DNA from: Lichtheimia corymbifera B2541
Taxonomy: Eukaryota; Mucoromycota; Mucoromycetes; Mucorales; Lichtheimiaceae
Length of the DNA: 64,000 nt
Reading direction: 5' to 3'
Assembly (NCBI GenBank): GCA_000697475.1
Contig: JNEU01000934.1
Span: 33,471 to 97,470 of the forward strand
Shown: piece by piece, positions 155 through 21,536 of the stretch
Numbering within the stretch: position 1 is the stretch's first letter
Layout of the letters: each line of letters opens with the position of its first letter
Translations under genes and position numbers: made by a program
Notes under the pieces: generated by a model
The model's input: only the letters and a program-made list of their open reading frames with translations
Database searches by the model: none
Told to the model about the DNA's origin: nothing

Positions 155-884
155 ATGAATAATTACGTTACACGCGCTGCTCTTGGCAAAGTAGCCGACC
201 ATGTTCAAGGCAAACCATCGATTGCGGAAACGGATCCTGAAATTCGAGCAGCTATGGAGACTGCTGTATCAACTACCAAGAAACACTGGTGGAAGAAACG
301 TCCCCAAGCAGACATCATATTGAGTGCTCATGATCGCCAAATACTGAGAACAGTCAAGAAACGAGCGTGGTATCTGGATCGTGGATGCAAATGTTGTTGT
401 CTACAAGTAGGATTGGATGGCGTTGTTGGTATGTTGATGATGATGATGATGGCACAGCCTTCGTGATGATGATGATGATGATACTCACATGGAAACGAGA
501 AAAGGCTTGATCCCAGTAGTAGGAGACCTTATCGGTGTCCTTTTGGCTTTACACCTTGTAAAGGTCGCGTGTCGCGCAGATTTACCCAATCATATTATTG
601 CCAAGATGCTAGTCAACGTGTTTATTGATTTTATGCAAGTGTGCTTTCAAAGTTGAGTGATACATTACACTAACGCACCTATCCTTCCATCCAGTCTCGG
701 ATTGACTCCGATAGCAGGTGATGTAATGGATGTGCTTTACCAATGCAACTGGCGAAATGCCATGATCCTAGAAGAATACTTGTTCCTTCGACGTCGTGAT
801 GAGATTAGAGCTGAACAAGGTGCTGCAGGTTATGGAAGTACAGGAAGTATCTTTATTTCCAAAAACGACAATAACGACAAATAA
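155..884 (+). CDS. DUF4112 domain protein
   Basis: Three exons (155-428, about 505-640, 695-884) join in phase to a 199-residue protein. The start is the ATG opening MNNYVTRAALG; an in-frame ATG at 77 lies in the pyrimidine-rich leader and is less likely. The family signature occurs twice: GLIPVVGDL near residue 93 and GLTPIAGDVMDVL near residue 138, followed by NWRNAMILEEYL. This is the small membrane-associated DUF4112 (PF13430) pattern. The two Gly/Pro-rich segments are hydrophobic enough to insert in or across a membrane. The biochemical function of the family is not known. The donor of intron 2 is the weakest point: GTGTGC at 639 or GTGCTT at 641, and only the second keeps the frame. The intron 1 region carries a (GAT)n run. 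Confidence 0.8.
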
Positions 885-1511
885 ATTTAAGATCCGGTGG
901 TAAAAAGACAAATTGTTAGTGAGCATTGCGAATAGCAAGAGCAATGATACGACTTACTTCTACCGGGCACGAGGCCCTACCCACCCGTCTTGATGGGTCC
1001 TATCTTGTAACAAAATTCCTCTTGTGCGGATGGAGGGACACACGAACTGAATCTTGATGACGATGGAATTATGCTGAAAGATGTATGACAGACAGCACCA
1101 CCGGACGACAGCCATTACAACCAAAAAACGAAGACGCCACAAGAAAAAAACGACAAGGACAAGCCGGAAAAAAACCTCCTTCATGTGGTTTGAAATCAGC
1201 GAATATTAGATGAAATGAAACTGTGTAAAGAAAAAATCACCACTGAAGTATCACGGCCTTTTATATGCAAAATGCTGTGAGATATGTAAAGGGGAAATAG
1301 TCGTCGTATTGGTAAACAGTAATGAAGGAGAGGTTGTCTGTGTGGTGTATCCTATAACGGTAATACCTTATTCTTTGTCTGGAGATCAGTGGTATACATA
1401 AACCATGAGACCGGTGCAAAGGTCACCTAGTATGGTATGTTTCCGGCGAATAACCATATTAATAAATCCAATGCATAAAGCCATCTAAGAAGAAAATCTC
1501 GGGGTTCCGGG
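885..1511. other. intergenic region, no gene seen
   Basis: No frame shows family-like protein and no structural RNA is visible. It contains the 3' flank of the DUF4112 gene and A/T-rich filler up to the repeat block. A 74-residue minus-strand ORF near 1184 is hydrophobic low-complexity sequence and looks incidental. Confidence 0.5.
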
Positions 1512-2030: not shown

Positions 2031-2764
2031 CGAAACTAAACACCTGCCTCCTTACACTTTGATAGCATTAACAACAAGCGATATGACGTCTCCTGCAGCA
2101 GCCTGCACCCACCACGCGACCACTTTTCCTTGTAAACACTCCAAGAAGCAACCAAGCTAAACCGAGAACCAGAAAGGAAGATAGTTACTTTTCCTTCAAT
2201 GCTGTATTACCAATACTACTTTAATCTACGATTGAATAGCTTTTAGAATACAGAGCAAATCCATTCGGATATAGTGCATAATAGACGTGAATGTTAGGGG
2301 AAGTAAAGTTAAAACAGATAACAGGGACCTGATACAACCTTGCAACTAATATTCTCCCTTAGAAAACCCTATGGAAAGTTGCACTATGTCAGGTTTTCTA
2401 GATCTGAATATTAACCAGCGATTTGGAAGATCCAGAAAAAGCTCCATTAGGGGTGGTCATGCTGGATGTTGGTTGGAGCTCTGGGGGACTTGGATGTAGT
2501 ACAGCCAACTATGATTGGATAGGCAATCCTTGATGCGAGAATCTCACGGGGTAACTAAACAAATCTTTGTGTTTGTTTAGTATGATGTGGCGTTTTCGTG
2601 GTACAAAGAGCATCCCAAAATAAGAATGGATGCAGCAAAGACAATGAAATGGACGTATACATGGAACTACATTATCGAAAACAAATCATCCTCCTTTCCG
2701 AACCAAACCATCCGCACAAAGAACTCTTTTAAAGGATAATGACTCTCTTGAATGAGAACATAAG
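2031..2764. other. intergenic region upstream of acidic protein gene
   Basis: Nothing coding is recognised. It lies between the tandem repeat and the gene that starts at 2765 and presumably includes that gene's promoter; no clear TATA box was picked out. Confidence 0.4.
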
Positions 2765-4624
2765 ATGTTCTCAGCTTCTACGATACAATCAATGAATGGC
2801 AACGATTCTGATTCCTCTGACGACGACTGGGTAATCACCGAAACAGCCACCGATCTGTCAACCTCTATGACAACATCCTCGTCGCCTCTATTTGCTACTA
2901 TACGAACTATCCAATCATCATTATGCACGAGCCAACATACTGAAGACACATTCCTATCACAATGGACCACAGAGATCAGCTATATCAACCAAAAACAATT
3001 GGAATCGATATGTTCATCGATGGATGGCCATCTTCTTGTGCGACGATTGGTCGATGCGTTCAACAATACAGAGGCCTTCTTACGGATTAAAGATACAAAC
3101 AAAGCCAAAACATCGTTTGATACCAGACTCAGTGAATCGCTTCATCTATGTAGCGATCCAGGATGTTTCATATTGGTAAAGGAACAGAGAAGATTATATG
3201 CCGTTACCAAATCTAACGAATGTGATATAGGATTTCATCCGGGCAACGGATTCTTATCTTTCTCAGTACCAAGATCCTGATTCGACATCCATATTTTGTC
3301 GATACATTATCCAGTCCGCGTGTCAAGCTTATCAAACATTCCTGGATACGCCACTCAACCAGTACAAGGAACCAAACAAGAACCACATTATTTTATCAAC
3401 AACGACGACGACATTGAGTCAATCAGAGGAAATGGATATATTCTCTTTTACCGATGATGATGAACCCAACCTTATTTCTTTTGATGATGAGGACGATGAT
3501 CCACTATCAATCAAACCGAATAACGACTTGGATGTGACGATCACTGAGATATTGAGCTCCAGCGATGAAGAAGAGGATCAAACTGACGAGGATGACGATG
3601 AGGATGATATTGAAAATGGCCTGGCCAAGTTTACTTTTGCGGATCTTATGGATATCCCAGTTGAGATACTAGAACGGCATGTTTTGAAATACGCACATCA
3701 GGTTTCATGTATCCGTCTTCTCGAGGTGATCTCATCACCCATTCCTATCTATTATGCGATGGGCGTATTCAAATTACATTCCATGATGGCGCATGACTGT
3801 GATTATGAGGAAGAAGGTGTACGATTATGCCAGATGCTTATGCAGCACAAGCACTACGATGAAGCGATTTCATGCATACGTCGACTTGATCTTTTTCACG
3901 AATTCCCGGTGGAGCAAATGGCTGGAGATATGATATCCAATGGAATGTCGCATATCGTGCCAGTCTATGTCAGTGGCCATGAAGCATTGCAGCGGCAGTT
4001 ACTCGATTACATCAATAGACAGCTTCGGTATACATTTGCTGGATCACTAGGCATTGTGTCTGAAGGTACATATATTGGTATAGCCACAATCTCCCTTCAT
4101 GTGACTAATAAGTATGTATCGTGATAGAACATCTCAGAGACTTGGAGAGTGATCAACAAAGGATACCACCATTACCTCGTTTGGAGAAACGCCGATTTCA
4201 AAAGGATTTGAGAAGATGTTGCGACAAGATTATGCGAGAATTGAATGACCAACCGACAGCATATTATTTCATATGGCTTTCCCAGCAATACACGTGTTTG
4301 AGATGGCTCATTACGAAGAGGGCCAATCAACAATCAGCAGAGAACGACTATTCAGTACCCAGCAGCTCTAATTATAGCGGTCTCATTGATCTTATCACAG
4401 CGAATGATCCTGCACTTGCTAAGCTCGCCATCAAAGAGCTTGTTGATTTCGGTGATCCCGCGGCAGCAACCTATTTTGCAAGACGCTTGAACCAACAACA
4501 ATTCCTTGTTCAATGCTATCAACGACCAGTACAAGATCGTGCGGTGGGGGACGACATCCCCGATCCCTTCACCAACCATGCATTTTCTCATCCTGAGCAA
4601 GATCTTTTTTCAGTTTTGATCTAA
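2765..4624 (+). CDS. acidic hypothetical protein, possibly Mut-7/EXD3 N-terminal-like
   Basis: Exons 2765-3175, 3231-4065 and 4128-4624 join in phase (introns 55 and 62 bp, both with CTAAC/CTAAT-like branch sites) to 580 residues. The first 270 residues are Ser/Thr-rich and strongly acidic (runs such as DDEDDDP and TDEDDDEDD). The second half is helical, with repeated 'KHYDEAISCIRRLDLFHEF' and 'ALAKLAIKELVDFGDPAAA' type segments. These resemble the helical-repeat N-terminus of Mut-7/EXD3-type 3'-5' exonuclease proteins. No DEDDy exonuclease domain follows: the reading frame ends and AATAAA occurs about 20 bp later, at 4640. It could be a stand-alone regulator, a truncated Mut-7 relative, or unrelated. 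The splice structure is firm; the family call is weak. Confidence 0.65.
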
Positions 4625-4763
4625 AGGTGTCTATACCACAATAAAAATGAAAGCTTTTATATAATACTGAACACCAGAATTATCGATTTGTGTAGCAACC
4701 TGTCAAAGATGTGTTCGTGTAACGACCACGCGCGATTTCATTAAGCTCTCCATCTTTCCGTTA

Positions 4764-4928
4764 ATGCAGCCAACATCATCCACTAGGATAAAGCAACTCC
4801 GTCACGCTACAGCATGTAGGCGAGTCAATCATAGATTGGTTGAACAAATCCAGGAGCTGTTGATCCGCATTGATGTGCACGGACTTGATAGATGCCAATC
4901 CCACCACAGGAAACTAACGTATGCATAG
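4764..4928 (+). CDS. short ORF with weak BAG-domain resemblance
   Basis: A 54-residue ORF starts at ATG 4764 and is open through 'VEQIQELLIRIDVHG' and 'HHRKLT', ending at TAG after a possible GTATGC donor. The pattern 'LL.(K/R)(L/I)D......R..RK' recalls the third helix of BAG (Hsp70-binding) domains. No downstream exon completing such a domain was found, so this may be a lone exon, a relic or chance. Confidence 0.2.
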   Translation: MQPTSSTRIKQLRHATACRRVNHRLVEQIQELLIRIDVHGLDRCQSHHRKLTYA

Positions 4929-5499
4929 CTTAATTACAAGGAATGTATTCAGTGGTTGTTATTATTGACTCAAGCGTATAGGCTATTGTTGAGGTCCATG
5001 TGTGCATATCAGTAACTATAGCAAGCGGGGTGGGTTGTAGTGCACAAATTGGGAAGTGCGAGGAACATCAAGGAGCCCCTTCTTCACACGCAATTCACAA
5101 ACCAAGGTAAGCTTGTCTCCATTCCCCACCTACAACGCATTAACGGCTGCCATTCCTTTCATTGTACAGCCTCAACTGGGTGAACAGGTGGTCAATGATG
5201 ACTCTTTTCGGCTGCAGCATTCGAAAACAAGGACGCGCGCGATCGACGATGACTCAAGCTTCCGTTCCAATACAAAAGGTACGTTGAATCGCTGCAACTC
5301 TTTTGCTATTCAAGTTGGATATTGTGGTACTAATGTTCACGTGTAGATTACTGTTCTCTCGTTTATACAAGATCTAATGGGGTGTCGCGTGTGTTCATTC
5401 CTAAGCTGTTCACAACATGAAGTCTTTACACTGCTTCCTTTGGGTATGCTGACAAGCAGACGCGTTTAGACTGGTTTTCCTTGTTATCTTACAATGCGC

Positions 5500-8400
5500 T
5501 CATGGTAGATTGAACATGTTGGATGAGGGTACATCTGGCAGCAACAAGATATCGATTTCAAAGCAAGAACGCTGCATGGTTGGCTCAATGGTATGCAGGG
5601 TGTTGGATCTACAAGCAGGAACACTTAATTAACCAGCCTTACAATGAAACAACAGCAGCAGCACATACTGGATCGGTTGGATACAAGGCTATTTGCAAGC
5701 ATCAAGAAATGGTATGGGAATGCCACAAGGTAAAGTGATCATTTTAGGATTTCTCACCTTCAAGTGCACTGATGGAAGAAATAGAATGGCACAAACATCT
5801 CTTTCGGCGATATAATCATTATCACAGCAGCACGTCAAGGGATGGAGTGTACTGTCTTAAGGGGGAAGGCCACGGTGTGTTAGCGGAAATCATGTCCGGC
5901 TCATGGTGCGACTTCGGTTTAAAAATGCATCCCCTGATCGGTATTGGAGAACAAAGTATATGCTCCACCCTTTGCAGGGCTATACTTTACTCGACTTGGA
6001 GAGATGGTGGTTATCTTCATGGCAACGTGGCTGGACCCACGGCAAGTGGTTGATAAGTCAGCTGGGGAGGGGCTCATATGGGTCACCTGAAACCGGCGTT
6101 TTGATGCCACGTTCCTCCGGGAGGCTAGAAGGCAGTGCGGGTGCTTCATTCCTTAGCTGTGCGCTTTTATTATTACTTTTACATCCTGATGGTCTATTTG
6201 GTTCCAAGTCTACATGATGATTGGGTAATTCTGGTATGTATGAGTATGATGATTTCTGGAAAACTTTGCTGAAACGTCTGATATTATTTAGAGGGACCAC
6301 TGCAGAGTGCTACTTGTCTTTGGGTGCTTTGGAGTTTACAAGATCACGCCTATGATTGCTAAGTATTGTTGGGTGGGATTGGAAAACTTCGTTTACCGTG
6401 CATCTTTTATATGTAGTGAGCCATGTCAGCCATAAGGAAGAAAAGTGTTTATATGGTGGCACTGATCTTCATTCCGTTCCTGGTCGTTGGTTGCCAAGCA
6501 ACGGGCGATTTCTCTGAAGGGTGTCAGCCAGTGCACGACTCTTGCGGTGGATTGTATCATTCAATAAGCAACAGCATCCATATTATCGGTGTCATCTCAA
6601 GCTTTATCTCGTTATTTGGTGCTTCTTGTTATCGGCAATTGGGTGGACACCTTGTATATCTTTGGTGTCAGCAAACTTTCCACGTCCTGGCGGTTTGGAT
6701 GATCGGCGATTCCTTTGATGCACGGCTGCCATTAAACGTCTCTTATGAATGGATCATGTCATCAACAAGCAGTAAGAGTCTACGTCGACATCTTTAGTGA
6801 TACCAAGGACATCTATACATCTCTCCAAGCTTGTCGCCAATCCTTTGAAGGTATCTAACTTCGCATGCCTGTTATCGGTGGATCATATCAGCAACAAGCA
6901 AGGCGCAGCAGCAATGAACAGCAGAGTCTATATCTTTAGTGTCAACACCATTTACTCGATTCTCTGGTGGTTCTCGTTATTGGCCAATTGCTTTCAAAAG
7001 CATTCTGCAGCGCATGTCTCTTATGGGTGTATCACATCAGCAGCAAGCAAGGATGTCCATTTATCTTTTTGGTGCTATCAAGGTTTATCTCCCTTCCTTT
7101 GGAGATAAATTGGTATGCATATCATTGGATCTGCAATACAAGTGCTATCTATTAACGAGCTTTATGATAGAACAGCAGCATGATATGGCTGGCACGGAGA
7201 TACAGTTTTATTTGAAGGAAGGACGCTGTTGAGAATTACTACAAGGTAAGAGTATTCGTCGTGGGATGTCTCGCATGCATGTGCACTTATGATGGAAGAT
7301 ATGGAATGACAGGATCAAGAAGGCTCTTCCTCGGTTATATCACTGGCACGTCAAGGATGTTATTGTACTGTGTGCTGCCTTGGGGAGACCATGCTGCCCC
7401 TTTCACATGTGCTCATGATGCTATGGCTTAGTCCAATTCAAATGCATCCTCTCACCACAGTTGCAGCGTGCGGATCCACGGCTCAGGTGGTGTCAAATTC
7501 GACTGATGAAGGACTTATATGGGTCACTGTTAAATTCGGTGTTTTGGCGCCATGCTTCCTTCGGGAGGGGGCTAGTAGACAGTACTGGTACCTTGGCATT
7601 CTTTGGCATTGTGCCCTTTTCTTATCATTATTGTTTCTGGCGGCGGGAATTCTAGCGGATCACTGTACCCTGATTAAGAGATTCGAGTACGTATTATCCA
7701 AAAGAGGTTTGGATACTTTTGTACTGACATGTGTCTTTTCTAGATGGATTATCTTGCATTGGAGTCGTCAGGATTACAGTCATCATTGTAAGTATCGTTC
7801 TATGTGTTTGGAAAATTGTTTACTGACGTGCATCTTTATAGGTGAATAATGTCATGGTCAAGGAGCGACGTCTATAGCAACCCTCAGTACCAGCTGGCCT
7901 TATTACATCGTTCGATTGTTCTCGTTACCACCTGTTGTACACTTCCGTTTATTTGCATCTGCAACAACAAGCAACATCTTTTATATCTTTCGTTGTCGTC
8001 AAGGTTTATCTCGTCCGATCGTGGTTCTGGTCGTCGACAATTCTTTTGATGGATATTCAGCTGTGCATGCATGTTATCGGTGGATCATATCAGCAACTAA
8101 CACAAGAAGTAGTAATAATGTGCAACAGAATCCATACCTTTAGTGTCAACAACATTACTCGATTCTCTGTGGATTTTCATCATTGGCCAATTACTTTCAT
8201 CAAGCGCATCCTACAGCGTACATCTCTTATGGGTGTGTCACGTCAGCAACAAGCTACAATGTGTGTGTGTCTTTTGGTGTTATCAACGTCTATCGAGCAC
8301 CCAAGGCAGCCGTCATCAAGCAACACTCCTTCCTCTGAAATAGCGGCTATGTATCAGTAATCGTTATTGCACGGGCATCTCTGCAGCAAGGAAACCGGCT

Positions 8401-8960
8401 TTGGGAGTGCGTAGCATCAAGCATTCTATATTTCCATATGGCCTGGGTAAGTATTGTTACTACTATCTCAAAGATAAACTAGTAATATGCGCATTCATGC
8501 GTCAATCATTCCATCAAGGCATATTTTACATACTTTTTGGTGCCATGAAGGTCTATTTGTTCTCCCTGGAGTTGTCAGTGCCAGGTCTTATTGCTTTAAA
8601 AGACGAAGATCAACATTCGAATTTTGGATGGATTTTTCATACGCAAGCAAACAATCTCTATTGCATCATTTTTTGGCTGTCGTTGTCAAGGATACCGTTT
8701 CCATGGTTTTACAAATCAGCTAACTGCAAGGCGTCTCTTTATTGGTGGATCTTTTGGGCAATGTTTCTTATCGGTACCGTGGCGTATATCATTTCTCAAA
8801 TACCTGTATGGATGCTATTTCATCAAGACCGGATTTATTTGTTGCAGTGCATGATGTGTCTCTGATGACGCCGACCCAAAAAGGTCGCTTGATGGTAGCA
8901 ACTACTCATATGGCGGATGTTTATTTGCTATGGGTAGAACGGGATGGTGCTTTGTAAAGC
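5500..8960. repeat. large degenerate direct-repeat region, no credible CDS
   Basis: Two long diverged copies can be aligned by eye. 5763-5870 (TGATGGAAGA.ATAGAATG ... CACGTCAAGG) matches 7280-7360. 6075-6190 (CATATGGGTCAC ... TTTGGCGC/TTTTGATGCCA ... GGGAGG) matches 7515-7650. 6350-6425 matches 7780-7855, and 6868-7090 matches 8067-8300. Offsets shrink from about 1.52 to 1.2 kb, so indels have accumulated. Inside each copy shorter words recur, for example ATCGGTGGATCATATCAGCAAC and TCTTATGGGTGT.TCAC.TCAGCA. The many 60-150 residue ORFs change frame between copies and show no conserved protein, which argues against coding. A decayed multicopy gene or a repetitive non-coding transcript are both possible. 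Confidence 0.7.
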
Positions 8961-10072
8961 ATCGTTGGCGGCTATGATTTACATGCGACAGTGAGGTCAG
9001 CCCTATCTTGGCCCTATCAATTGCATTTGAGGATTACTGCCTTAGCCGCTGGAAGTCAGACTGTCACTCGTCAACCTTGTGGTAGATATGGGATCATGTA
9101 TTGCTTTTTGCTCTTATGGATCGGCTTCTGTGTCATGTCCATGTCCACGTGTCTCCATGACAATGACCCAACGCTTACAACAAAGACTAAAGGTGGAACC
9201 TGAAGGATGACATGGGCGATACAAAGAAAGTCAAGCTGCCGTCATGAGAAGACACCGTTAGACCGCAGGCATCGATGTGAAGTGGGAAAGGGTTTTAGTA
9301 AGGAGAAAGAGGTTAAAAATGCATAGAGCGGAGCGCTCACGCGCTTTTTTTAGGCGAACCGTGGATAATATGAGTCGGGTCACAAATAAGCGCTGTGAAT
9401 CGGTTCCATGACCCAGCCAGCGGGATCCAATTTATCTGTAATGTTTCATTATCCTCTAAGCTTCCCTGGAAAAGAGCCCCTCCTCCCCCTAGATAATCGA
9501 CTAAATATATATACACCATGTACATGAATATGCAATAAGAACCAGTTACCGGTCAATAAATAAGGAAATTATCCGTGAGTAATGATGGTCAGCGTGGATA
9601 AAACGTGGATACCAGGATTTTATTTGTTGGTCTTATGTTATCGGTACCGCCAATCGGTGGTCGTACCAACAACATCTCTTTCTATTCTTTACTCGGTGTT
9701 CCAATCTGCTTGACAACAATTCCCACGCCCATTCTCATATATAATCAAGGCTCTTTGTACTAACACTATTATATACCCTTTCTTTCTATTTGTATTCGTA
9801 TCATCGTCAACGATTTTTGGTAAACATCAATAACAGTCTTTATGTGGTCCTGATATGAGGGTACTTATTTGGATCTTTTCTGTTTTCATCTGTTATGTAT
9901 CACGTTATAGCTTTAACCTGAAGTGGTCATTGGTGTTTACTGATACTGATATCTGGCTGTGTTCCTTTGTCGTCTTTGTGGTCGGTATAATCATATATAC
10001 ATTTAAAGGAGGTCTAGTCTGATAGGAATCGGGATTCTCTTGTAGGTGACATGAGTACCTTTGTGCCATTGT
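8961..10072. other. intergenic region
   Basis: No coding signal or RNA gene was recognised. It has a small GC-rich inverted segment near 9325 (GAGCGGAGCGCTC) and a TATATA-rich stretch at 9735-9785 that may be the old promoter of the broken F-box gene downstream. Confidence 0.4.
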
Positions 10073-11276
10073 ATACCATAGGAGATCAAGCTGTACATGA
10101 TACTCGCAATTCTGACCTATGAAGCTCGCCTTCTCGATCTTACTCCGTACTTTGCAGAGGATCGCGGCATGAATATGGTCGATGGTTTTCTAGACGGGAT
10201 ACTGACCACTATACTATCCGAGAAACTTATCACTTATACCACGTGTTAAGGGTATGCATCACAAGAACAACGCAATATCGACAACAGAATCTCGAAGCAC
10301 TTGCACGGATGACCCAGAAGGATGACGCGTTTGAAGTTGCAACACCTATGGCTTTAAGAGATTAATCATCAGCATTGGACGAAGTCTATGTTCGCGTGAT
10401 TCAAAACTACAAGCACCACTTGCATGAAATGGAAAGAAAGAATCAGCAGCATTCAATGATGACAGCACAAAAGTTGACTCCATCAAGATGCTTCCATATG
10501 ACATTGTAGCCAAAATGGTCCCCTATTTGTGGCATGCCGTTTCCAACACGGATGATGATGAGACACCTGCCTTTTTATGTGTATCCAAGCATTGGCGCAG
10601 AGCGATCCTTGAAGCTACACCTTTTCTTTTTTACCGTTTTCTGGATCGTGACCGCAACAAGGATCTTTCCATCCCATACCAATTCCGTATTCGAAGAATG
10701 GATATCGTTACCTATCACGTACCTTGTAGGCAAGTGCTTTGGTACGTGGTTGGTTACTTACAGCACCTGCGTATCGGTAAGGCCCTCTTTCGGTTTTTTT
10801 TCTCCATGTACCTCAAATGTCTAAAGTACAATGGAGACACAGATGATCGGATCCAATGACCACATGCATGGGATACCAGCATAGAACCAGGCATCCAAGA
10901 TATCCCAAGTACGTTGACGCTGCAGAAGAGTTGAATCAGGAGTTTTTACTAACACCAAACACGATAAAGGGCATCAATTTGGAATAGTCCACGAATCACT
11001 GTGAACAAACGAACCCTCTTCCAAACGGGACGATATTTTCGTATTTGGTGTCTTTATCATCAGACCTAGTGGAGTATGAAGATCACTTTTGATTTTGCCG
11101 TTACCATGATCGATAACGCTCCAAACCTTGAAACGATCGACAACCGGAGCATCATTCGGATTGATCCAGCACCAATCATTCTTAAGGCCACTTATCATGA
11201 GTTGATACCTTTATTGTGTCGTGATCAAGAATGGCTGCAAAGCAAGGCCAGGACAACAATTGATAAAAGATGACTT
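10073..11276 (+). pseudogene. decayed F-box/TPR(-LRR) protein gene
   Basis: Fragments in shifting frames match the Mucorales F-box family in which TPR-like helices precede an F-box and leucine-rich repeats. 10090-10240 reads 'LTYEARLLDLTPYFAEDRG'-like TPR helix. 10275-10445 reads 'LEALARMTQKDDAFEVAT' then an in-frame stop, then 'SALDEVYVRVIQNYKHH'. 10488-10859 reads an F-box-like start (MLPYDIVAKMVPYLW ... FLCVSKHWRRAILEATP). 11080-11270 reads an LRR-like 'MIDNAPNLETID' and 'HELIPLLCRDQEWLQ'. At least one internal stop and several frameshifts separate them, and the N-terminus is missing. The order of fragments is that of an intact relative, so this is a genuine relic rather than chance ORFs. 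Any product from the 10488 ATG would be a truncated F-box protein. Confidence 0.65.
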
Positions 11277-11412
11277 TTTACGAGAGATGAAAGATGATGA
11301 TTTATTTTTGGATACGATGCGTTCTTATATTGTATGGATGTAGATTCTAGACACGATGGGAGAGGGGAGGGAAAGTGAAGGAAAGGTGTGACCGGGCATT
11401 GTGTGTGATGTA

Positions 11413-11566
11413 TCAAAAGGAATGTCAAGGAAACATGGATGGAAATCATATGATGCGTCAAATGGTAAAGAAGTATATCCGAAGTGTGCCAAAAGGAATG
11501 TCGTGGAATCATGGATCAAGATCATGTGATCTTGTCAAAAGATAAAGAAGTATACCGACATTTGTC
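11413..11566. repeat. 76 bp tandem duplication
   Basis: AAAAGGAATGTC at 11415 recurs at 11491, and the following bases (GGAA.CATGGAT ... ATCAT.TGAT ... GTCAAA.G.TAAAGAAGTATA) align for the rest of the unit. There are two diverged copies in a gene-free region. Confidence 0.75.
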
Positions 11567-12571
11567 ATGGAGAAGGAAGATCAAGTTCTCGAGGTATTGA
11601 AATTGTTTATTGGTGTTCATATTGAAGAGAGCTCATTAAGATCAATAACATTATGGACGCAGGATTGCGTTGAAGCGCTTTTACCACATATTACAGTACT
11701 GGGCTAGGCTGAAACGCCATCCTTCGTTCCTGGCTATTCATGGTGACCAAACCTGCTTGGCGAGCAGTGGTGATGAAAATTGTTCTGGATATCTTCAAAT
11801 GTGTCAGGTCAATAATAAAGCTTGCTGGTTAATTAATGACATCAATGTGGTGGGTCCTGCCGATTGAAGGATATCATGGGTCTTCTATTTCACGCTAGGA
11901 TGTGAGAACATTGGCAAAAGAGGCTTATTAGGTGGGATGTCATCCGGGAGAGAGCGACAAGAAACGGTGATAGCCGTATTATTCATTGTCAAGTAGCTCA
12001 CTCATGTCAAAACTAAAGACGGAGAAGAACCAAAATAGGTAACAAAACCGAGGGAGTAGATGTTGATGGGTTAATCTTACTGGTAGAGGGGTGCATGATC
12101 GTTCGAGACATCCACGCGGTCATGCGCTCGTGAAGCTAGACATGCATTTAGAAACAAAGAATATCAACATGCTCTTATCATGACTCCTTTGCTTATGTTA
12201 TTTTTATCATATTCCGTCACAACTCAGCTCAAAGTTGGATTGACATGATATTCATTGTCTTATTGTAGTAGCCAGTTTACTAAAATATTGAAAGACTTTG
12301 GTTGACATCCGTACCTGTTGCAAGAATCATCACAGCATTCATCATGTGACGGATATTGTAAGATGAAAAACGAGCAATAGCATTTGTCATGACAAAAGGG
12401 GTAATACTCGAAATAAAGTTGTCATGCATGCGTGCAACCGCAAGGGAATCGTGTATGGATCTGGATCATCATCATACCATGAGATCATAATGACGATCAT
12501 CACCATAAAAATCAGAGTGGTGAGAGTAATTTCGACCTCTTCTTTCTTCCCTTCAAGTTTTCCTGTAAAAA
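11567..12571. other. intergenic region
   Basis: No gene, structural RNA or repeat was recognised. The short ORFs here have no family resemblance. Confidence 0.4.
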
Positions 12572-13016
12572 ATGGACCACCCTTACGAAACAGGAGAAAA
12601 AGTCTGCTATAGATTACCCGACGATAGTAAGCATTATCCGTTATTCTTATTAGCTTATGTAGATTTTGGGATACATCACTCTAACATTTGCGTCGCTAGA
12701 AAACCTTCAGCGTATTGGAATTATCAAAGCAGTCTATATCAATCCAGTGCAGAGAGTCCCAAAGGTAATTATTGAATAACGTATCACGTGAATCTCGCTT
12801 ACCAATAACCAATTTACAGACTTTATTGAAAGGACAAGGGAAGAAGCAGATGGATCAAGCGACAGAACAGGCCCCAGTCTTTTGTATTGAAGATTCCTTC
12901 AACGGAGCTTATGCCTGTAAGTGCGAATATGTATTGGTAGTAATACGGTTGACTAATATCGTGGTCTTCAGTGGTCCACTTGTCTTTAGTCGTCCATCGA
13001 ATCAATAACCGACCTC
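12572..13016 (+). CDS. possible small or decayed gene, function unknown
   Basis: The first exon from ATG 12572 reads MDHPYETGEKVCYRLPDD and ends at a GTAATT donor near 12765. An acceptor (TTTACAG) lies near 12820. The phase-correct join gives a short tail beginning DFIERTREEADG and stops soon after. The better-looking downstream segments ('QAPVFCIEDSFNGAYA', then after a GTAAGT..TTCAG intron 'LVHLSLVVHRINNRPR' and stop) need a different phase. This pattern suggests either a misjudged splice site or a gene that has taken a frameshift. No family is recognised. Confidence 0.3.
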
Positions 13017-13039
13017 GCTGAACTACCAACTCCATGGCT

Positions 13040-13898
13040 CATATCTTTGCATTCTTGATATATTTGTACAACCCACATCTTAACCGCCTATATGGATATA
13101 TTTTGGCTTTGGCACAAAAATAAACGCCTTACAATTGCTAGGATGAATACTATTGCTGATAAATCATGGTGTGAAACTTGATTACGACTCGATTCATACA
13201 TGGAATATATGCGTTTTTAACAGTGATAAATGGATACTGAATAAGGGTACCGGTTGCCAAATGTAGGATATCATTCTACATTGACAACTTTTTTTTCCCA
13301 TTATTGTTGGTCCGGTTCATATTCGGATGGTGGTCTATAAACACCCACATAACATCTTCTTATAATAAAACTCGGTGATTCTTCTGGGTCATGTGTATAA
13401 GCGTATATGAAACGTGCGCGATTGACTCAAAAAGCCTCCATGTATTCTTTGTAACAGTATGCGTTTATGCTAAGCGATAGCGGTGTTGACACTTGGGAAT
13501 GGTGTTTATCGGTTGTGTGCGTCAGGATCGATGATTTCGATAGTATACGATCTCATAACGTAGGATAATGGCACCACGTATTATAGGGGGGAGAGCTATC
13601 AACATTGTACCATATATAGGTATGGTGTTAGTTGTCCTCCAGACAATGACGCTTGGAAAGACAATGACTACATTTGGCCAGTATCCTGTATTTACAGGTA
13701 CCTCGTCGACGGCAATAAGCATATTTCTCTCCCGACTTTTTTGTCTTGTTGTCCATCCGCATCCTTATACCACGTACCCTCTTGTGATATCAACATCTCC
13801 TTTGCTTGAAACTAACAAATCTATCGCTTCGTAAGTCACGACAACAACAGTAACCGATATATCATCGAGGATTAACATCATATAATCCTACGTAGATT
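13040..13898. other. 5' flank of the XPG-Fanzor gene
   Basis: There is no recognised gene. Two short perfect inverted repeats occur: ATGTAG/CTACAT arms at 13261-13281 and ACCATA/TATGGT arms at 13609-13626. An 88-residue ORF at 13568 has no family resemblance. The element boundary, if the downstream gene is or was mobile, should be sought here. Confidence 0.4.
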
Positions 13899-16800
13899 AT
13901 GGGTATCAAAGGCCTACATCAATATTTACGAACATCAAACAGCTTGCAACAGGGTGTGAATGTTCCCCAGCAACTTGGTGAAAACAACACAAACACCATC
14001 TTTGTCGACTTTTGCTGTGAATTTTTCCAGCTTTTTCAGATCACTTCAGCATTGGAACTTTTTCGCCTTCAACTTCGAGGTGCAAACACAGAAAATAACG
14101 TCAACACCTTCTATCTTGTACTGGGTGAATTCGTTGCCGTGGTGTTGGAGCGGCTTCATCATCTTCTTGACCAGGTACCAGGGCTTACTACTATATGCCT
14201 TGTTATCGACGGTGATCCGCTTTATGCCAAGAAGGAGACACACGTGGCACGCAAGAAACGTCGACAAGATGCTATCAAGTTGGCAAGAAGAAGGTTTCCG
14301 GGTAATCCCAACAATATTCCTGATCCCCAACTAAGCAAGTATGCAAAGCAATGGTTGACGTTCACTGCGGCTATGAAGAACTTTGTCATTGAAGATTTGG
14401 TATTCCGTGGGCACCATCAGTACGATGGAAATAATCCCAATCAACAAGGCATTGTTTATGTATCAGCCCCATTTGAAGCTGATCCAGTTGTCGTTCATTT
14501 GGCCAACAATCGACCAAACTCTGCCATCATTTCAAGGGACGGTGATTTGTTTGCGTATTATGGTGCTGTTGATGTTCCGGTAAGTAAAACGTACAAGCTG
14601 TTTCGTGACTTGGTAGCTAATATTATTATTTGATAGCGTATCCTAAAGTTCAACTGGGACATTGGTGCACAATTTGGTCAAGGTGACATGACAACCAAAC
14701 GCCAGCTATTGAATGCGTTAGCCGGTCATCCTATCGCAAATGATCAAGAATTACAAATGGTAAGCGCCTCATCACTTTACGTAAACCTATGACTCATTAT
14801 ATTTTCAGGCTCAAATCGAATTCGCTGTTCATGCTGCTGCTTCCGGCAATGATTATGCCCAGAACATACCTCAGATATCATTTATCAAGATCCATGAAAG
14901 CTTACAAGCATTACGTCCACATGCAGGAAATGCCAACAATGTCCTTCAAAGACTCATTGATGCATTGGGGAATCGGGCCACTCCTTTCTTTGTTCAAAGC
15001 TTCCAAGTTGCGTTATCACAATACGCTTATCCAATTGTAGGTGCAAATGGTCAACGCTCTGAAGCCATGCCCTTTGAAATCATTGGAAATGTTCTACAAT
15101 ACACTGGAGCTGAACCAGCATATCCAACCACTGGACCTCAACCACAAGGTTCGCGGTACACGTTCCTTCCACCTGATGGTAGTTATTTCCAGGAGCAGTG
15201 GGGTCATACGAGTCCCGAGAACGTTGATCCTTTACGACCAAGACCCCCGCCAAGGTTGGTGTCACGTGCGAAAAAAGCGAAAAGAAACATTTCATCCAAG
15301 GTCAAGAAAATAAGGGCTTTCGTGGATAATCAGCAATTCAGGCATCCAGACGGTGAATCTTCGACCACATACTCACAAAAATCTCGATACAAGGTGACAT
15401 GCCAAGCAGGATTGTATTCTTCGGTGCTGGCTATAGACAACCGCAGTGCCATTCAAGCTACCATCATTACGAATGCAATGCGTACTTTGGTCAACAAGAT
15501 GTCCTTTGCAAGATTTGCTTGTCTCCATATTGCGGATATTGCCATGAGACAGGCATTCACCACCTTGAACCCACAACAGTGCTATGTGTTCTATTCTCGT
15601 TTTTTCGATGAAGACGTCCAGATACGCACAGAAACATGGCGTAGACTTGTCCTTTGTGCTATGAATTACCAACCTGGTCGTACAGAAACTACATACGAAG
15701 ATCGTGGAGCAGCAATAGTGGCCACTGTTTCAGACAGAGTTAACGACATTGTGGATGTTAACGGCAATATACACAATGGCAACCATCACCTTTTCAAGGC
15801 TTATGAAGGCGATGTTGCGTACACTTACCTTTACAGCCTTATGCAAGATGATCCAGTTATTTGCCATATTTTTCTCAAAGCAAGAAAAATATGGTACAGC
15901 GGAGAATTCAGTGTGCTTCACGGATTAGTGCCTGCAAGTCTTTACATTGGACCCGTGGTGACCGAGATTGTACATGGTCTCGATTTGGCGTTTCGCCAAA
16001 ATATCATCAGGAATTTCAGGGCAAGATATTGTGATTACATACGACGACGATTACAAGAGACTGCGCAGTGTCCACAAGGTTGGGATAATAATGAAGGTTT
16101 CCGTAACACTACTATCCAAGCGGTACAAGCCCAAACACGGCAACAAGCTATAAACACCGTCCAGCAAGACCAGAATATTGCTCCAGGCATTCGGCCTGCT
16201 GTCAACAATTTTGTTCAAAGAATGAACAGCAAATATCACGTGAATCTACAAGGATTTGATCATAACGTGTGTATACAAGAGTTGATCAATGAAGCAACGG
16301 TTCCTCTGCAATGGCCTGCCAACCGAGATCGTCTCGTTCGTTATATTTTCCAGCAAATTTGGAACGTCCCTTTGTATTCAGGCGAAGAAAACAGGTATAA
16401 CACTTTTAATGTACTCATTACAGGTAGCTAATCTTGTTATTTTTTATTACATAGGGACATCGATGAGCAAGCCGATAACCAGCAGGCTCAACAAGAAATA
16501 CAGAATCTACCCCAGGGTATCCAAGATGCTATTAACGACTTTATAAATGGCGAGCGCGATCTTCAAGTCATCGACATACCAGTCCAACAATATGATCTTC
16601 GTGCATGTCTCGGTATTGATCCTCCTGGTGAACCACAAGTGATTAATGAACCGACTCCTGTTGAACTTGGAACAGTACGCCCTCGTAATGGTAATGGTAA
16701 TGGTAACGGCAACCATAACGCCAATCCTGACGACAATGCAAATTACCTTGGTAATGCGGACGACGATGAGTTTGAGGAAGATGACCTTGAAGACGATTAT

Positions 16801-18373
16801 TACGGCCGTCCACTTAAGGGATTAGCAACAAGACTTGTTCCGCTTATGGTGTATATGCTCCAGCATTGTAATGGGTACCTTACTTTCCCTCTGACTCCAC
16901 ATCAGCCATGGGGCCCCATTGCGATACCTTTCGATCACAGCGGCATAAAAGAAATATTCTTTACAGGAAATCATTTCAAACATTTCGTGGCTCCTCAAAT
17001 CAGTGATATGCAACAACGTATTATCGACGCTATCCAAGGTGGACACATGGAAATTGCAGATCAGTTAGAGCAAGGTAAACAAAAATGAATATGTTGTATG
17101 CAAGTTTACTTACATAGTATGTTCTTCAGAATTGGACACCATGAACGCCGAGATCGAAAACTTCATTGATTTGCCATTCAAAGTTAATCGTTTCGATCAG
17201 TTATTTGATATCAAGAGATGCGCGATAATAATCAACGGTGAAAAACAAGTGACCAATCGTGGCTATTTAAGGTGGTTAGGTTCTTATATTCCTGGGACCA
17301 GTACAAAACGTTTTACACCAAGACGGTTGATCCGTACCGATGGTATGCGCATCTACGTCATTTATGCTGACTGGTTGCGTGGTAAACGAGAAGGTGTCCA
17401 GGCCCGGTTCATGACGGAGTCACGGAGAACAACTCGGGAAGCAATGATCCCGTTGCTCTCGCCTGCCAATGAAGGGATGCGTCAAGGTGTAGATTTATCA
17501 GATCCATACCGTGGTGTCGTTGGTATGGATTTTGGAGAAGTTTGTTCGGTGGCTTCGGTATATAGGCCCACTGATCCTACGTTGCAAGGGTCACAGCTGG
17601 TTATTAAGAGAGGTTTTCTATACGGTCGAACTTTGTTGAACCGCGACCAATACAACAACATGAAGGCTGCAAATGGCATTGACCAGTTACTTTCCGAGTT
17701 GGGGACATCGACTTATCAAGGAACATACGAACAATTGATGCAGTACTTGGATTTGATCAAGGGAAACACCAGGGCGTATCGACTATGGATGTTCCAATCC
17801 AAGGCTTCCGTAATGAGATTCAAATGGGATAACTTCATGTCTTTGCGTTCGAGGTTGGATCAAGCTTGCTCCCTGGTCATTAACCAAGCTTCAGCAACTA
17901 ATGATGATGATGACGACGACAGACCTTTGATATTCGGATTCGGCTTGGATGGTATCAGTCAACGTAACAGGCGTGGCGCTGTCGCACCTATGGATCAAAA
18001 GCTCATCAACGCCTTATTCCAAAAAATCAAGCAAACGAATCGCTTAAAAGATAGGGAAGATCGTGATATATGCACTCGAGTGGACGAATACATGACTTCA
18101 CAGACATGTTGCCGTTGTATTAAGGAAAGTGTAATAAGCCAAGTCAACTATCTTGTCCGTCAGGCCACCATTTTCGATCGCATGGCACAAAATGCACAAG
18201 GTCAAGTAGAGGTTTTCCGAGTCGTTCGATGCCAGCATAACGATCAGCACACATACCATCGCGATGGCAACGCTGCCGAAAATATGGCGACTATACTCCG
18301 TTATATGATACGTTTCCAACAGCGACCACCCCGCTTCATCAGACAATCGCGTTTACCTCAAGAACAGCAATAA
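13899..18373 (+). CDS. XPG/FEN1-like nuclease fused to Fanzor (TnpB-like) RuvC protein
   Basis: Five exons (13899-14579, 14637-14759, 14809-16394, 16455-17074, 17130-18373) join in phase to 1,417 residues. Residues 1-320 form an XPG/FEN1 domain: MGIKGL start, acids D37, D104 (IDGDPLYAKK), E193 and D195 (APFEADP), D214 and D216 (SRDGD), and D283 in SGNDY of the helix-hairpin region. A basic linker near 421-437 could be an NLS. Residues about 460-900 match the helical part of Fanzor/TnpB proteins. An acidic Asn/Gly spacer encoded at 16680-16800 follows. The RuvC core is at about 1130-1395: D1137 (GMDFGE), E1323 (VDEYMTSQTC, the Fanzor-type relocated glutamate), zinc-ribbon cysteines 1330, 1331, 1333 and 1371, and D1382 (HRDGNAAENM). 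The second Cys pair is irregular (CQHNDQH). Known Fanzors are RNA-guided DNA endonucleases linked to transposons. The FEN1 fusion is inferred from continuous frames and needs transcript proof. No transposase is seen nearby. Confidence 0.85.
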
Positions 18374-18405
18374 GTAGTAGACTTTTTTTGTATGTATGAT
18401 GTTCC

Positions 18406-18421
18406 TCGATCAATAAATCGA
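18406..18421 (+). terminator. hairpin overlapping polyadenylation signal of the XPG-Fanzor gene
   Basis: TCGAT and ATCGA form a 5 bp stem around CAATAA, so the AATAAA at 18412-18417 sits mostly in the loop. It lies 33 bp after the stop codon, which is a normal place for a poly(A) signal. The hairpin may be fortuitous. Confidence 0.4.
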
Positions 18422-18468
18422 TTCGACATCTTATTTAGTAAAATGATGTTTGATATTACGTAAACATA

Positions 18469-18711
18469 TCAAAGGAGATCTTTCCCGTCATTTAGGCTTA
18501 CTGGGTCTAAGTTTACAATTACACGTATCTTCATCGATAATTGGGATGTGTCTATGACTAGAATTGCTTTCCTCTTTATGGCTTTATAATTTACCGTTAC
18601 TTGCTCTAGTTTAACTTTTCGTGCAAAGAAAACTTCATAATTGGTATTGTACTTTTGCAACGACAGAAATTGAGTATGACTAATATCTCGATGGAAGACT
18701 AGTATTGCCAT
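18469..18711 (-). CDS. orphan ORF, 80 residues, unrecognised
   Basis: Reads MAILVFHRDISHTQ through 'KLEQVTVNYKAIKRKAILVI' to a stop at 18469. The alternation of charged and hydrophobic residues is protein-like and it could be the last exon of a minus-strand gene or part of a mobile element with the neighbouring XPG-Fanzor gene. No upstream exon was found and no family is recognised. Confidence 0.25.
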   Translation of the reverse strand: MAILVFHRDISHTQFLSLQKYNTNYEVFFARKVKLEQVTVNYKAIKRKAILVIDTSQLSMKIRVIVNLDPVSLNDGKDLL

Positions 18712-19154
18712 AGATAATATATTCTTCCGCGAAGATGTAATGTGGAGTTGATAGTATCGGGTAAGGCATGCTTTCTGTTTATAATCACTTTATCATCATA
18801 CATATAATGCTGGTTTTACGATGTGTCTATCTGGGTGTCGTATTTCAAGTGTCAATACATCCCCGAATACAAGATGACAAGTCTTTGTATCACAGCGACC
18901 ACACTTATCCCGCAAGAGGATACCGTATACACATACACATTCAAGGTTCATTACACGACGTGCCAACATCTTCATATATAAACGTCATCTTTATATAGCA
19001 TCGTCACACAACCATCCCAGAAACCTATATAAGACATGTTGTAGTTGTAGCTGGAAACATTATTTTGAATACAGTATATTGATTCTCAACGTACCTTCTA
19101 TCCTTCTGTCTATCCTTTCTATACCGTAATATCTCACTGACCTTGTTAACACAG

Positions 19155-19382
19155 GAAGTACAAGCAATTCCACAAGATCAAACCCAGCAACGATCACTGC
19201 ATCAACTAGCAACAGTAGCGGAAATGCATTAAAAAAAGCTAGCGGGTCGAGCCGACAAGACAACAGTCGCCATGGCGACACAAGGAAGAAAGGCGATATA
19301 TCAAAGAATGTACGGAAAAACAGCAGTGGGCCAAAACCGCGTGAATATGCAACATTCATCTCTATTGATACTCGTGCATAGT
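19155..19382 (+). CDS. orphan 3' exon-like segment, Ser/Asn-rich
   Basis: After an acceptor-like sequence (CTGACCTTGTTAACACAG) the frame is open for about 75 residues, Ser/Thr/Asn-rich then basic, ending '..GPKPREYATFISIDTRA' at TAG. AATAAA follows at about 19479. No matching upstream exon was identified between 18720 and 19155, so this may be the end of a gene whose 5' part is lost or very short. Function unknown. Confidence 0.25.
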
Positions 19383-19799
19383 AGAGTGTTCCACAAGGCT
19401 GATCGATTGTTCTTTCAAGTCATGCATACCCTCTTTCCTATTGATCTCATACTGCCGCTCATACCATCATTGATTCTGAATAAAGATATGAACACTGCTC
19501 ATTGATCCTATCATCATGGACCCATTTTCAATCATGATAAGAGAGTGAAATAGTATTATCATTCAACATTGTAATAAAGGTATATGGGGCCTTTTTTCTA
19601 CTTTGGGTGCCAGATGAATAGGGAAGGGTTATCCTTGGCGGTAGTAAAACATACCGAGTGAATGAGCTCGCTCGCACTGCAGAGGCATCCGGTTGTGTCA
19701 CTTTCAAAAGTGGATTTTAGGTTTCAAATCACCACCACGCATATCAATCACTTCTTCTCTTTGCGGGCTCCTTTTACAGCTCTTCCCGTTCTTTTCTCT

Positions 19800-21536
19800 A
19801 TGGACTTTGCAGCATATGACTTTGGAGCTTCCGGTGACAATGGCAAAGGAGATCATTCCTCCCAAAACCAGCAGCATGCTATTGACGGCTCTGTCGATTT
19901 CTTTTCCTTTGCGGATGTCCCAGCGGATTACCATGGCAACGATCCAACCACCATGAACATGGACTATTCACAAGATCTTGGTTCGTCTTTTGCAATGACA
20001 CAGTTTGGGAACCACGACGCACCTCAGCTACAGGATAATATGATGCTACAAGGCCATGGCCATGTTGGTAACAGTGCTCAATATGACATGTCACCTGCAC
20101 ATACGCCGTTAAATCGCCCGCATGGTATGGGCTCAATATTTGGAGAGGATGAGGTATTATACAAGTTCAAATGAGTATTGGTGCACGTCTTCGTATAGCT
20201 CATGCCATCCAAATAGGATTTTTTCAGTCCTTTACTTTCCCCTGCGATTGGGCCATCATCATCGACATATCAGCAACATAACACGGCTGAATCGAGCTTT
20301 TCACCACTCACATCACCAGCGTTGCATTCACAACAAGGGATGGAGAACGTATTACAACAGAGATTGGTTATGATTGAACATCAGCAGCAACAACTAAGAT
20401 CCGCTCATCCCCACATGCCTCCTTCTGCCAATGCACATACAACAACTTCTTCACATCAACCATCAGCAACAGCACAATCACAGCCAATAACAACCACATC
20501 CTCATCAACCATATCCAAAGAAGCAATATACCCAAGGAAACTCGCTCCATCTTCAGTATCATCATCATCAAAAGCATCCAATAACAACAGCAATGACGAC
20601 CATGCATTTATTGCCCCAGCCACTCCATCGTTACTAATGAGGTTGGGTCAACAAGGTGGCAAGAGCAATGATAAACCTTCCATGACATCCACCAACAATG
20701 CAACATCCAAAATAACTGCACAGCATCAACCACCATCATCAGCAATATCATCATCATCGTCATCATCAGTGGATAACATGGCGTCGTTACCAGCTGCTAT
20801 GCTAGAGATGAGACCGGCGCCAACTAGAAAGCAATCTTTACCTGCTACTACAACCAAACGACGGAGGATATCACGTACATCAGCTGCATTTACATCACCT
20901 GCATTGGCTCCAACAGCGATGCATATATCACCAAGGGTGCATCCTACTACCCCATCAGGCACCGATCCCACCATTGCAGCTTTGGTATCACCAGCAGCTT
21001 TACGGCCTCAATCATCAACGGCCTCTCCACGAGCATTGAAACCTCTTATTTCACCTTCACTACAACCCAATGGAAAACGACTCACTGCCATTGAAGAGGA
21101 AGTAGCTGCTGCTGCATTAGCTTCTAAAAGCAACTATCAAAACATGCGGGAAGGCAAGGCAAAGAGTTTGGGCATTGAGTTTTCTACGAGTTTTCAATCA
21201 GGCGTTGAGAATCGGCGGTCGGCACACAAGGCAGCTGAACAAAAACGACGCGATACGCTTAAACAAAGCTTTGATGCGTTGCGTAAGGAAATTGCGGATG
21301 CTTTGGTGGAACAGCAACGACAAGAAGAGGAAGAGGAAGTTGCCAAGGATGATGTCCAAGAACGAAGGGAAAGCAAGGAAAAAGAAGTCAAGCAAATGAG
21401 CAAAGTGGTCTTGATTCAGCATTCTTATGAATACATCCTAAGGCTCAAGGAAGAAAACCGAAGGAAAGATCAAGAGATGGCATTGTTGCAACAAGAATTA
21501 GATAGTCTGCGCAAGCAAATCGATTCGAGTAAATAG
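19800..21536 (+). CDS. bHLH transcription factor
   Basis: Two exons (19800-20153 and 20217-21536, 63 bp intron) give 557 residues. The start chosen is MDFAAYDFG; an in-frame ATG at 19662 would add 46 residues of leader-like sequence. Residues about 120-400 are Ser/Thr/Gln-rich and disordered. The basic region is RRSAHKAAEQKRRDTLKQSF, with the H, E and R positions that specify CACGTG E-boxes. Helix 1 is followed by an unusually long acidic loop (QQRQEEEEEVAKDD..). Helix 2 is MSKVVLIQHSYEYILRLK, and the tail is a coiled coil ending at the C-terminus. This arrangement resembles fungal Pho4/Cbf1/Esc1-like dimeric regulators; the exact orthologue is not assigned. CAT and CAG repeats make up much of the middle of the gene. 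Confidence 0.85.

Follow-up and report, generated by a model that had tools for sequence, protein, structure and literature searches.

Fanzor1 proteins are established as RNA-guided endonucleases (PMC11423790, PMC10432273), and most of them count 600-700 residues (PMC11423790); what is said of published systems here and below is drawn from passages of the cited papers. The fingerprint of Fanzors consists of a RuvC-I motif that is "near exclusively DPG" and of an alternative RuvC-II glutamate located just before the zinc finger (PMC10711439), and a Fanzor motif has also been written as D-X(125,275)-[TS][TS]XX-C4 zinc finger-X(5,50)-RD (PMC3627910). Fanzor1 families have been disclosed in Rhizopus, Mucor and Phycomyces, some of the elements being without inverted repeats; their N-terminal regions are described as highly variable, and the passages concerned name no XPG-type domain (PMC3627910). 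The expression "Fanzor flap endonuclease homologs (Fendons)" has been used for virus genes in an ambiguous wording, in a passage that does not describe a fusion (PMC11071296). The present analysis concerns a gene of Lichtheimia corymbifera B2541, in which a nuclease of the XPG/Rad2 type and a Fanzor-like RuvC half share a single frame, and the probable mobile element carrying it. The gene is located in the window, i.e., the whole stretch of 64,000 nucleotides that was analysed (C281:33471-97470, in a 35-Mb assembly of 432 contigs), and will be referred to as the window copy, or C281 copy. Searches of open-access full-text literature (supplements excluded) yielded no description of an XPG-family nuclease joined to either a Fanzor or a TnpB, which agrees with a first reading of the window from its letters (hereafter, the original prediction), whose author knew of no described fusion of this type.

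A single gene for two nuclease halves

The gene starts with an ATG at position 13899 and is composed of five exons (13899-18373, + strand), giving 4,254 nt once spliced, that is, 1,417 codons plus the stop codon. The model of five exons, four introns and 1,417 residues advanced in the original prediction is correct, and its splices are retained as given; among the GT-AG combinations tried near the four introns, four are open and encode 1,415-1,421 residues, the adopted model included. The protein can be divided into three parts, i.e., an XPG/Rad2-type nuclease (residues ~1-330), a middle region (~330-1120) and a Fanzor1-like RuvC with a zinc ribbon (~1120-1417), whose limits (~330, ~1120) were placed by eye from motifs. 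Those originally proposed are close to them; the assignments attached to them need amending, the nuclease half being nearer to EXO1 than to FEN1 and the RuvC half being without DPG. That the two nucleases are encoded by a single gene is supported by sequence comparison along three lines (co-linear paralogues, proteins of other species, and selection), which also bear out the single-gene claim already made for this locus.

As to the paralogues, the same genome harbors two intact co-linear copies, C61:33145-37602 (75% identical) and C364:102716-107569 (35% identical). The former encodes 1,416 residues and maintains all four introns at matching sites and phases; the latter encodes 1,564 residues (with the best-looking splice sites out of 10 open splice combinations), has introns 1, 2 and 4 at corresponding places and lacks intron 3. 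Exon 3 proceeds for 528 codons without interruption from the XPG fold onward and is a single open exon in the three copies; since it is unbroken from the XPG fold into the middle region, the nuclease half is thereby linked to the downstream part of the protein, and exons 4 and 5 are connected via introns common to the C61 copy. The introns of the C281 and C61 copies share 70-76% identity per aligned column and the exons 75-90% at the compared codons, so that conservation alone hardly separates the ones from the others. The evidence for the introns consists instead of position, phase and splice sites; intron 1, for example, measures 57 nt in C281 and 58 nt in C61, a change that would shift the frame. 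The differences between these two copies at the three codon positions show a weak bias in exon 1 (24/25/34) and a clear one in exon 3 (110/84/202) and exon 5 (64/48/153). At least five further loci (C312, C118, C423, C215 and C425) are partial or decayed, the genome search giving lower bounds.

Outside this genome, Lichtheimia hyalospora possesses an annotated protein of 1,416 aa (P0001) showing 67% identity over 100% of the query; hence, another genome does encode both domains in one protein, at full length, so that the absence of such a protein elsewhere, which the original prediction had named as a refutation, is not observed. The same architecture, which the original prediction had proposed to look for in other Mucoromycota, is present in partial form in two more of them. 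The protein of Apophysomyces ossiformis (P0002, 1,036 aa) begins within the XPG domain and ends a short way after RuvC-I, the zinc ribbon being absent, and that of Rhizomucor pusillus (P0007, 327 aa) joins an XPG piece, recognised by eye and not by Pfam, to a TNB piece; the middle is missing, and the protein looks internally deleted. The XPG piece of P0007 reads EAY where the other members have EAD. With the full-length query, two records were retrieved from 5.77 billion proteins, and further searches yielded two and then, with the RuvC half, five records. These searches considered records of 0.55-1.75x the query length (the second one scored 8,000 candidates sharing most words); since those below 0.55x were excluded, split annotations could have been missed. 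P0004-P0006 come from short contigs and may be single exons, for which reason they were counted neither as fusions nor as non-fusions. Three pattern scans, with two to six short peptide patterns each, confirmed no relatives in viral contigs or prokaryotic genomes.

As to selection, the ratio of nonsynonymous to synonymous substitution rates (dN/dS, simple Nei-Gojobori count) between the C281 and C61 copies is 0.234 over the whole frame. Along the protein, residues 1-320 give 0.26 and the linker (321-480) 0.47; the segments 481-840, 841-915 and 916-1120 give 0.16, 0.32 and 0.35, respectively, and the RuvC, the most constrained part, 0.12. Between C281 and C364, synonymous sites are saturated, and ratios could be obtained for two segments only (0.384 and 0.375). 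Judging from these counts, the fusion frame is under purifying selection.

The nuclease domains and the middle region

The original prediction had pointed to the XPG_N, XPG_I and TNB profiles as a check of the domains. All three match the whole window protein, each below its curated cut-off: XPG_N at residues 1-125 (E 0.02), XPG_I at 184-223 (E 3.1e-4) and Cas12f1-like_TNB (PF07282) at 1319-1388 (E 4.1e-5; 24.1 bits vs a cut-off of 26.3). In the family, XPG_I is matched in five members out of five (best E 2.1e-4) and XPG_N in two out of five (best E 2.3e-4); the scores of both are under the cut-off for C281, P0001 and P0002, and in a six-frame search of the genome, XPG_I reaches 25 bits at the window locus, together with its neighbours, vs a cut-off of 24.9. 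When a profile of five family members was compared with the PDB, seven matches up to E 1 were obtained, with EXO1 as the best one (E 3.4e-4) and FEN1 weakly matched (0.48 and 0.87); a search of solved structures with the single window sequence gave no relative. The alignment with EXO1-, Rad2- and Yen1-like sequences of the same genome, which are partial and were labelled as such in this analysis, revealed seven acids (D37, D104, E193, D195, D214, D216 and D283) that we take, following the FEN1 literature, to be catalytic. All of them are present in the four full-length members (C281, C61, C364 and P0001), and P0002 has the five that it covers. After GxDY, the window copy reads IPQISFIKI vs PGIG in two of the three references, while P0002 and the Yen1-like reference have one glycine each; the helix-hairpin-helix glycines at this place are usual in XPG/Rad2 nucleases, though not strictly defining.

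The TNB profile exceeds 26.3 bits in P0004 (39.1), P0005 (28.1), P0006 (31.7) and P0007 (27.5) and, in the genome search, at C364 (35.9), C312 (36.3) and the C281 exon (27.2); it stays below that value in C61 (23.2), P0001 (22.7) and P0003 (21.9; an annotated L. corymbifera protein), and P0002 is not matched. The alternative RuvC-II glutamate (DEY..S.[TM]C) is present in all ten members showing that region (C281, C61, C364, C312, P0001, P0003-P0007). Decayed pieces were left out of this count; among them, the glutamate is retained in C423 but not in C425. In the window copy, 188 residues separate the RuvC-I aspartate from the TS pair (187 in C61, 181 in C364, 198 in P0001), and RD follows. Four zinc-finger cysteines are found in C364, C312, P0004, P0005 and P0006, whereas C281, C61 and P0001 have C-x-H or C-x-x-H as their second knuckle. 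SpuFz1 (E 0.016, in two collinear stretches) is one of three PDB matches of a profile of seven RuvC cores, another being a TnpB structure (E 8.9e-4). The TnpB model NF040570 (curated score 100 bits) was not reached by any of the six proteins scanned, the best being P0004 with 26.0 bits; PHROGs and NCBIfam returned weak transposase/TnpB matches only, P0004 having the best one, and were uninformative for the other proteins.

The RuvC cores were also compared with ordinary Fanzor1 genes of the same genome. Two of them, at C396 and C361, align with the family in a profile-profile comparison (probability 97%), in which the aligned region spans 248 columns and extends from RuvC-I as far as the C-terminal RP..F.RPS; in an hmmsearch with the RuvC cores, they score 31.3 and 27.5 bits, the top score among 900 shuffled sequences being 7.2, and C362 scores 2.2 (three of the four ordinary loci were compared, C363 being left out). 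On the basis of these profiles, the RuvC core is homologous to the ordinary Fanzor1 genes and is Fanzor1-like by descent. The four ordinary loci (L052, L054, L051 and L050, in C361, C396, C362 and C363) carry DPG and the alternative glutamate and can serve as controls; among the eleven other TNB matches in the genome, DPG is present in all four ordinary Fanzor loci with a readable RuvC-I.

As to the middle region, no homologue of its exon 4 portion was found outside the family, and that it corresponds to the RNA-binding domains of Fanzors is a guess based on its position.

A probable mobile element carrying the gene

The stretch between 847 and 18482 of the window is probably a mobile element, of which the fusion gene would be the right-hand gene (Table 1). 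The left end, G[TC]ATCTTTATTTCC, occurs at C281, C61, C361 and C42 with four different flanks. In addition, a deleted derivative of 567 bp (C361:27572-28138) corresponds to window positions 847-1154, 2148-2314 and 18315-18482 and keeps both ends. A left end at four sites with different flanks, together with such a derivative, is what a mobile element accompanied by a non-autonomous form would show. In the flanks fetched for C61 and C364, no right end was detected, and a match with three mismatches in L044 may be due to chance. According to a Blast of the window vs the fetched copies, homology with C61 begins at 847, is patchy up to ~2236 and resumes at 12381-18372; the region upstream of the fusion gene (12800-13898) is 64% identical to C61, and 2236-12381 is material of the window copy without a C61 match.

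Within this material, a gene-like stretch (2756-4624) contains a frame (3231-4121) with 82% protein identity to C182:60447-61316; since it is unmatched in the C61 element, it was possibly captured. An abundant repeat (5384-7400) has 158 genome matches and adjoins the C364 copy as well, the similarity to the C364 flank reaching 8421. On the two sides of the element lie a DUF4112-like gene (26-846; E 1.3e-4, just under the cut-off), whose 3' end reads, by eye, into the left end, and, beyond the right end, a repeat of ~300 bp (18836-19138) with many partial copies in the genome.

Table 1. Features of the fusion gene and of the putative element (window positions)
Feature	Position	Strand	Residues or sequence	Remarks
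Left terminus	847-860	+	GTATCTTTATTTCC	Start identical at C61 and C361; at C42, one base differs
Small second gene, probable	12574-12916	+		At least two exons, by eye; exons partly conserved in the C61 copy
Exon 1	13899-14579	+	1-227	XPG N-region and matched part of the XPG I-region (D37, D104, E193, D195, D214, D216)
Exon 2	14637-14759	+	228-268	Intron sites correspond in the C61 and C364 copies
Exon 3	14809-16394	+	269-797	Begins within the XPG fold (GNDY, D283), open into the middle region
Exon 4	16455-17074	+	798-1003	Middle region with an acidic stretch
Exon 5	17130-18373	+	1004-1417 and stop	RuvC and zinc-ribbon (TNB) half
RuvC/TNB core	17480-18370	+	1121-1417	
RuvC residue	17528-17530		D1137	DFG
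RuvC residue	18086-18088		E1323	Alternative glutamate
RuvC residue	18263-18265		D1382	
Non-coding right end	18374-18482	+	109 bp	From stop codon to terminus; C361 derivative keeps 18315-18482 at 94%
Right terminus	18465-18482	+	CATATCAAAGGAGATCTT	Common to C281 and C361, flanks differ beyond

Possible role and comparison with known systems

The reading that we favour, with a probability of roughly 0.45, is that the gene encodes a two-nuclease protein of a Mucorales element, in which targeted cleavage would be combined with 5'-end resection or flap removal, favouring the recombinational copying of the element. The Fanzor-like half, possibly guided by an RNA from the right end of the element (18374-18482 is where such a guide would be expected), might cut a chosen DNA site, probably one that the element has left or can enter. 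The attached 5'-nuclease might then act on the broken ends, stripping the 5' strand or removing 5' flaps; this would discourage simple end joining and lead to repair by copying from a chromosome still holding the element, which would be kept or spread as a result. To our knowledge, the benefit that Fanzors bring to the elements carrying them is unsettled. The retention of a 5'-nuclease in the same protein as a Fanzor-like nuclease, in copies diverged to ~35% identity, suggests that the element benefits from end processing, so that this "cut and copy back" idea is directly testable; if both parts work, the protein would be a natural cutter able to process its own break and, if this proves true, would show that nature has already combined a programmable nuclease with one for resection. 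A bolder version appears doubtful to us: a selfish RNA-guided nuclease with a built-in EXO1-like resection nuclease, coupling a programmed break and end preparation to homing or restoration, and belonging to a separate eukaryotic DFG branch of Fanzor-like proteins.

Several observations weigh against the cut-and-copy reading. RuvC-I is DFG or DIG, not DPG, in all nine readable members (C281, C61, C364, P0001-P0006; P0003 is nearly identical to C61, and the decayed C215 piece, with DFL, was not counted); since DPG is said to define Fanzors, the core was not classified simply as a Fanzor1. In the window copy, the second zinc knuckle is C-x-H instead of C-x-x-C, and a profile of five RuvC cores matched in the PDB TnpB alone (E 0.02), SpuFz1 not being listed. 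When the middle region was compared with the N-terminal parts, only roughly joined, of the two ordinary Fanzor1 genes, its score as a Fanzor REC/WED (18.4) fell below the top shuffled-column controls (maximum 27.4 among 100), and the assignment was rejected as far as sequence is concerned. The AlphaFold models, built on ten alignment rows each, were poor (mean predicted local distance difference test score of 42.5 for P0003 and 40.8 for P0002) and were not used as evidence; nor was a PDB fold search with the P0003 model, which gave nothing at E <= 0.001 (best Cas12f1, E 0.99). At the level of the element, neither a terminal inverted repeat nor a target-site duplication was seen by eye, ATCTT being present at both ends; no transposase was recognised in the six frames scanned inside it, the other frames remaining unscanned; the right end folds no better than shuffled sequence (z from -0.95 to +0.90); and Rfam has no match in 12000-20000. 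Lastly, as regards a single product, the start of the annotated protein P0003 (769 aa, matching the C61 copy at 764/769 residues) is an internal methionine, and a shorter product initiated inside exon 3 might exist.

Four alternatives to the cut-and-copy reading were weighed. The 5'-nuclease might be the working enzyme of excision or integration, trimming flaps and branched intermediates, with the Fanzor-like half acting only in delivery via RNA or end binding. The lack of a recognised transposase family in the frames scanned, the catalytic residues kept by the nuclease and the departure of the RuvC from the Fanzor fingerprint are in its favour; however, D1137, E1323 and D1382 are kept and no other part is as constrained as the RuvC, both of which point to a RuvC that works, and we consider this explanation unlikely. 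It seems quite unlikely that the 5'-nuclease processes nucleic acid around an R-loop, or matures the guide RNA by removing a 5' flap, instead of resecting the break: XPG/FEN1-type nucleases act at flap and bubble junctions, and the right end, as the expected location of a guide RNA, is retained by the deleted derivative, yet no notable RNA fold is found there. A domesticated host protein, devoted to repair or to defence against invading DNA and no longer mobile, would account for frames that are intact in copies diverged to 35% identity; the partial or decayed pieces in the genome, and the element ends common to the deleted derivative at another site, make it very unlikely. That there are two products, the N-terminal nuclease being made on its own and the Fanzor-like protein from a start within exon 3, is highly improbable in spite of the internal start of P0003 and of the split annotations possibly missed, given that the joining exon 3 is open in three copies, that dN/dS is 0.47 in the linker and 0.16 after it, and that the independent L. 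hyalospora model covers both halves.

The locus can be compared with several described systems. With the XPG/Rad2 nucleases (EXO1, FEN1, Rad2 and Yen1), the fusion shares the MG[IL]KGL start, the XPG N and I regions and the seven acids; it differs from them in that the scores are mostly below the Pfam cut-offs, the window copy lacks the helix-hairpin-helix glycines, and a Fanzor-like partner is attached. As in the Mucor circinelloides Fanzor1 elements MCi-2 and MCi-5, no terminal inverted repeats are recognisable; in MCi-2, the Fanzor genes occupy a constant right part, and the left part is variable; the passages on these elements mention no nuclease fusion, and three MCi-5 copies encode a Harbinger transposase (PMC3627910). 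The Parasitella parasitica PpFz1 is likewise a Mucorales Fanzor1 with an extra domain, but this is a RuvC insertion (FRI) of ~100 residues within the RuvC, which binds cyclophilin (PMC11423790), whereas the fusion has a whole N-terminal nuclease. With Fanzor1 in general (SpuFz1, GtFz1, PpFz1), the RuvC and zinc ribbon are shared, as are the alternative glutamate, which precedes the first cysteine of the ribbon by seven residues, and, for two ordinary Fanzor1 genes of the same genome, a profile match along nearly the whole RuvC core; compared with the published proteins, the fusion is about twice as long as most Fz1, has DFG/DIG in place of DPG and carries an added N-terminal 5'-nuclease.

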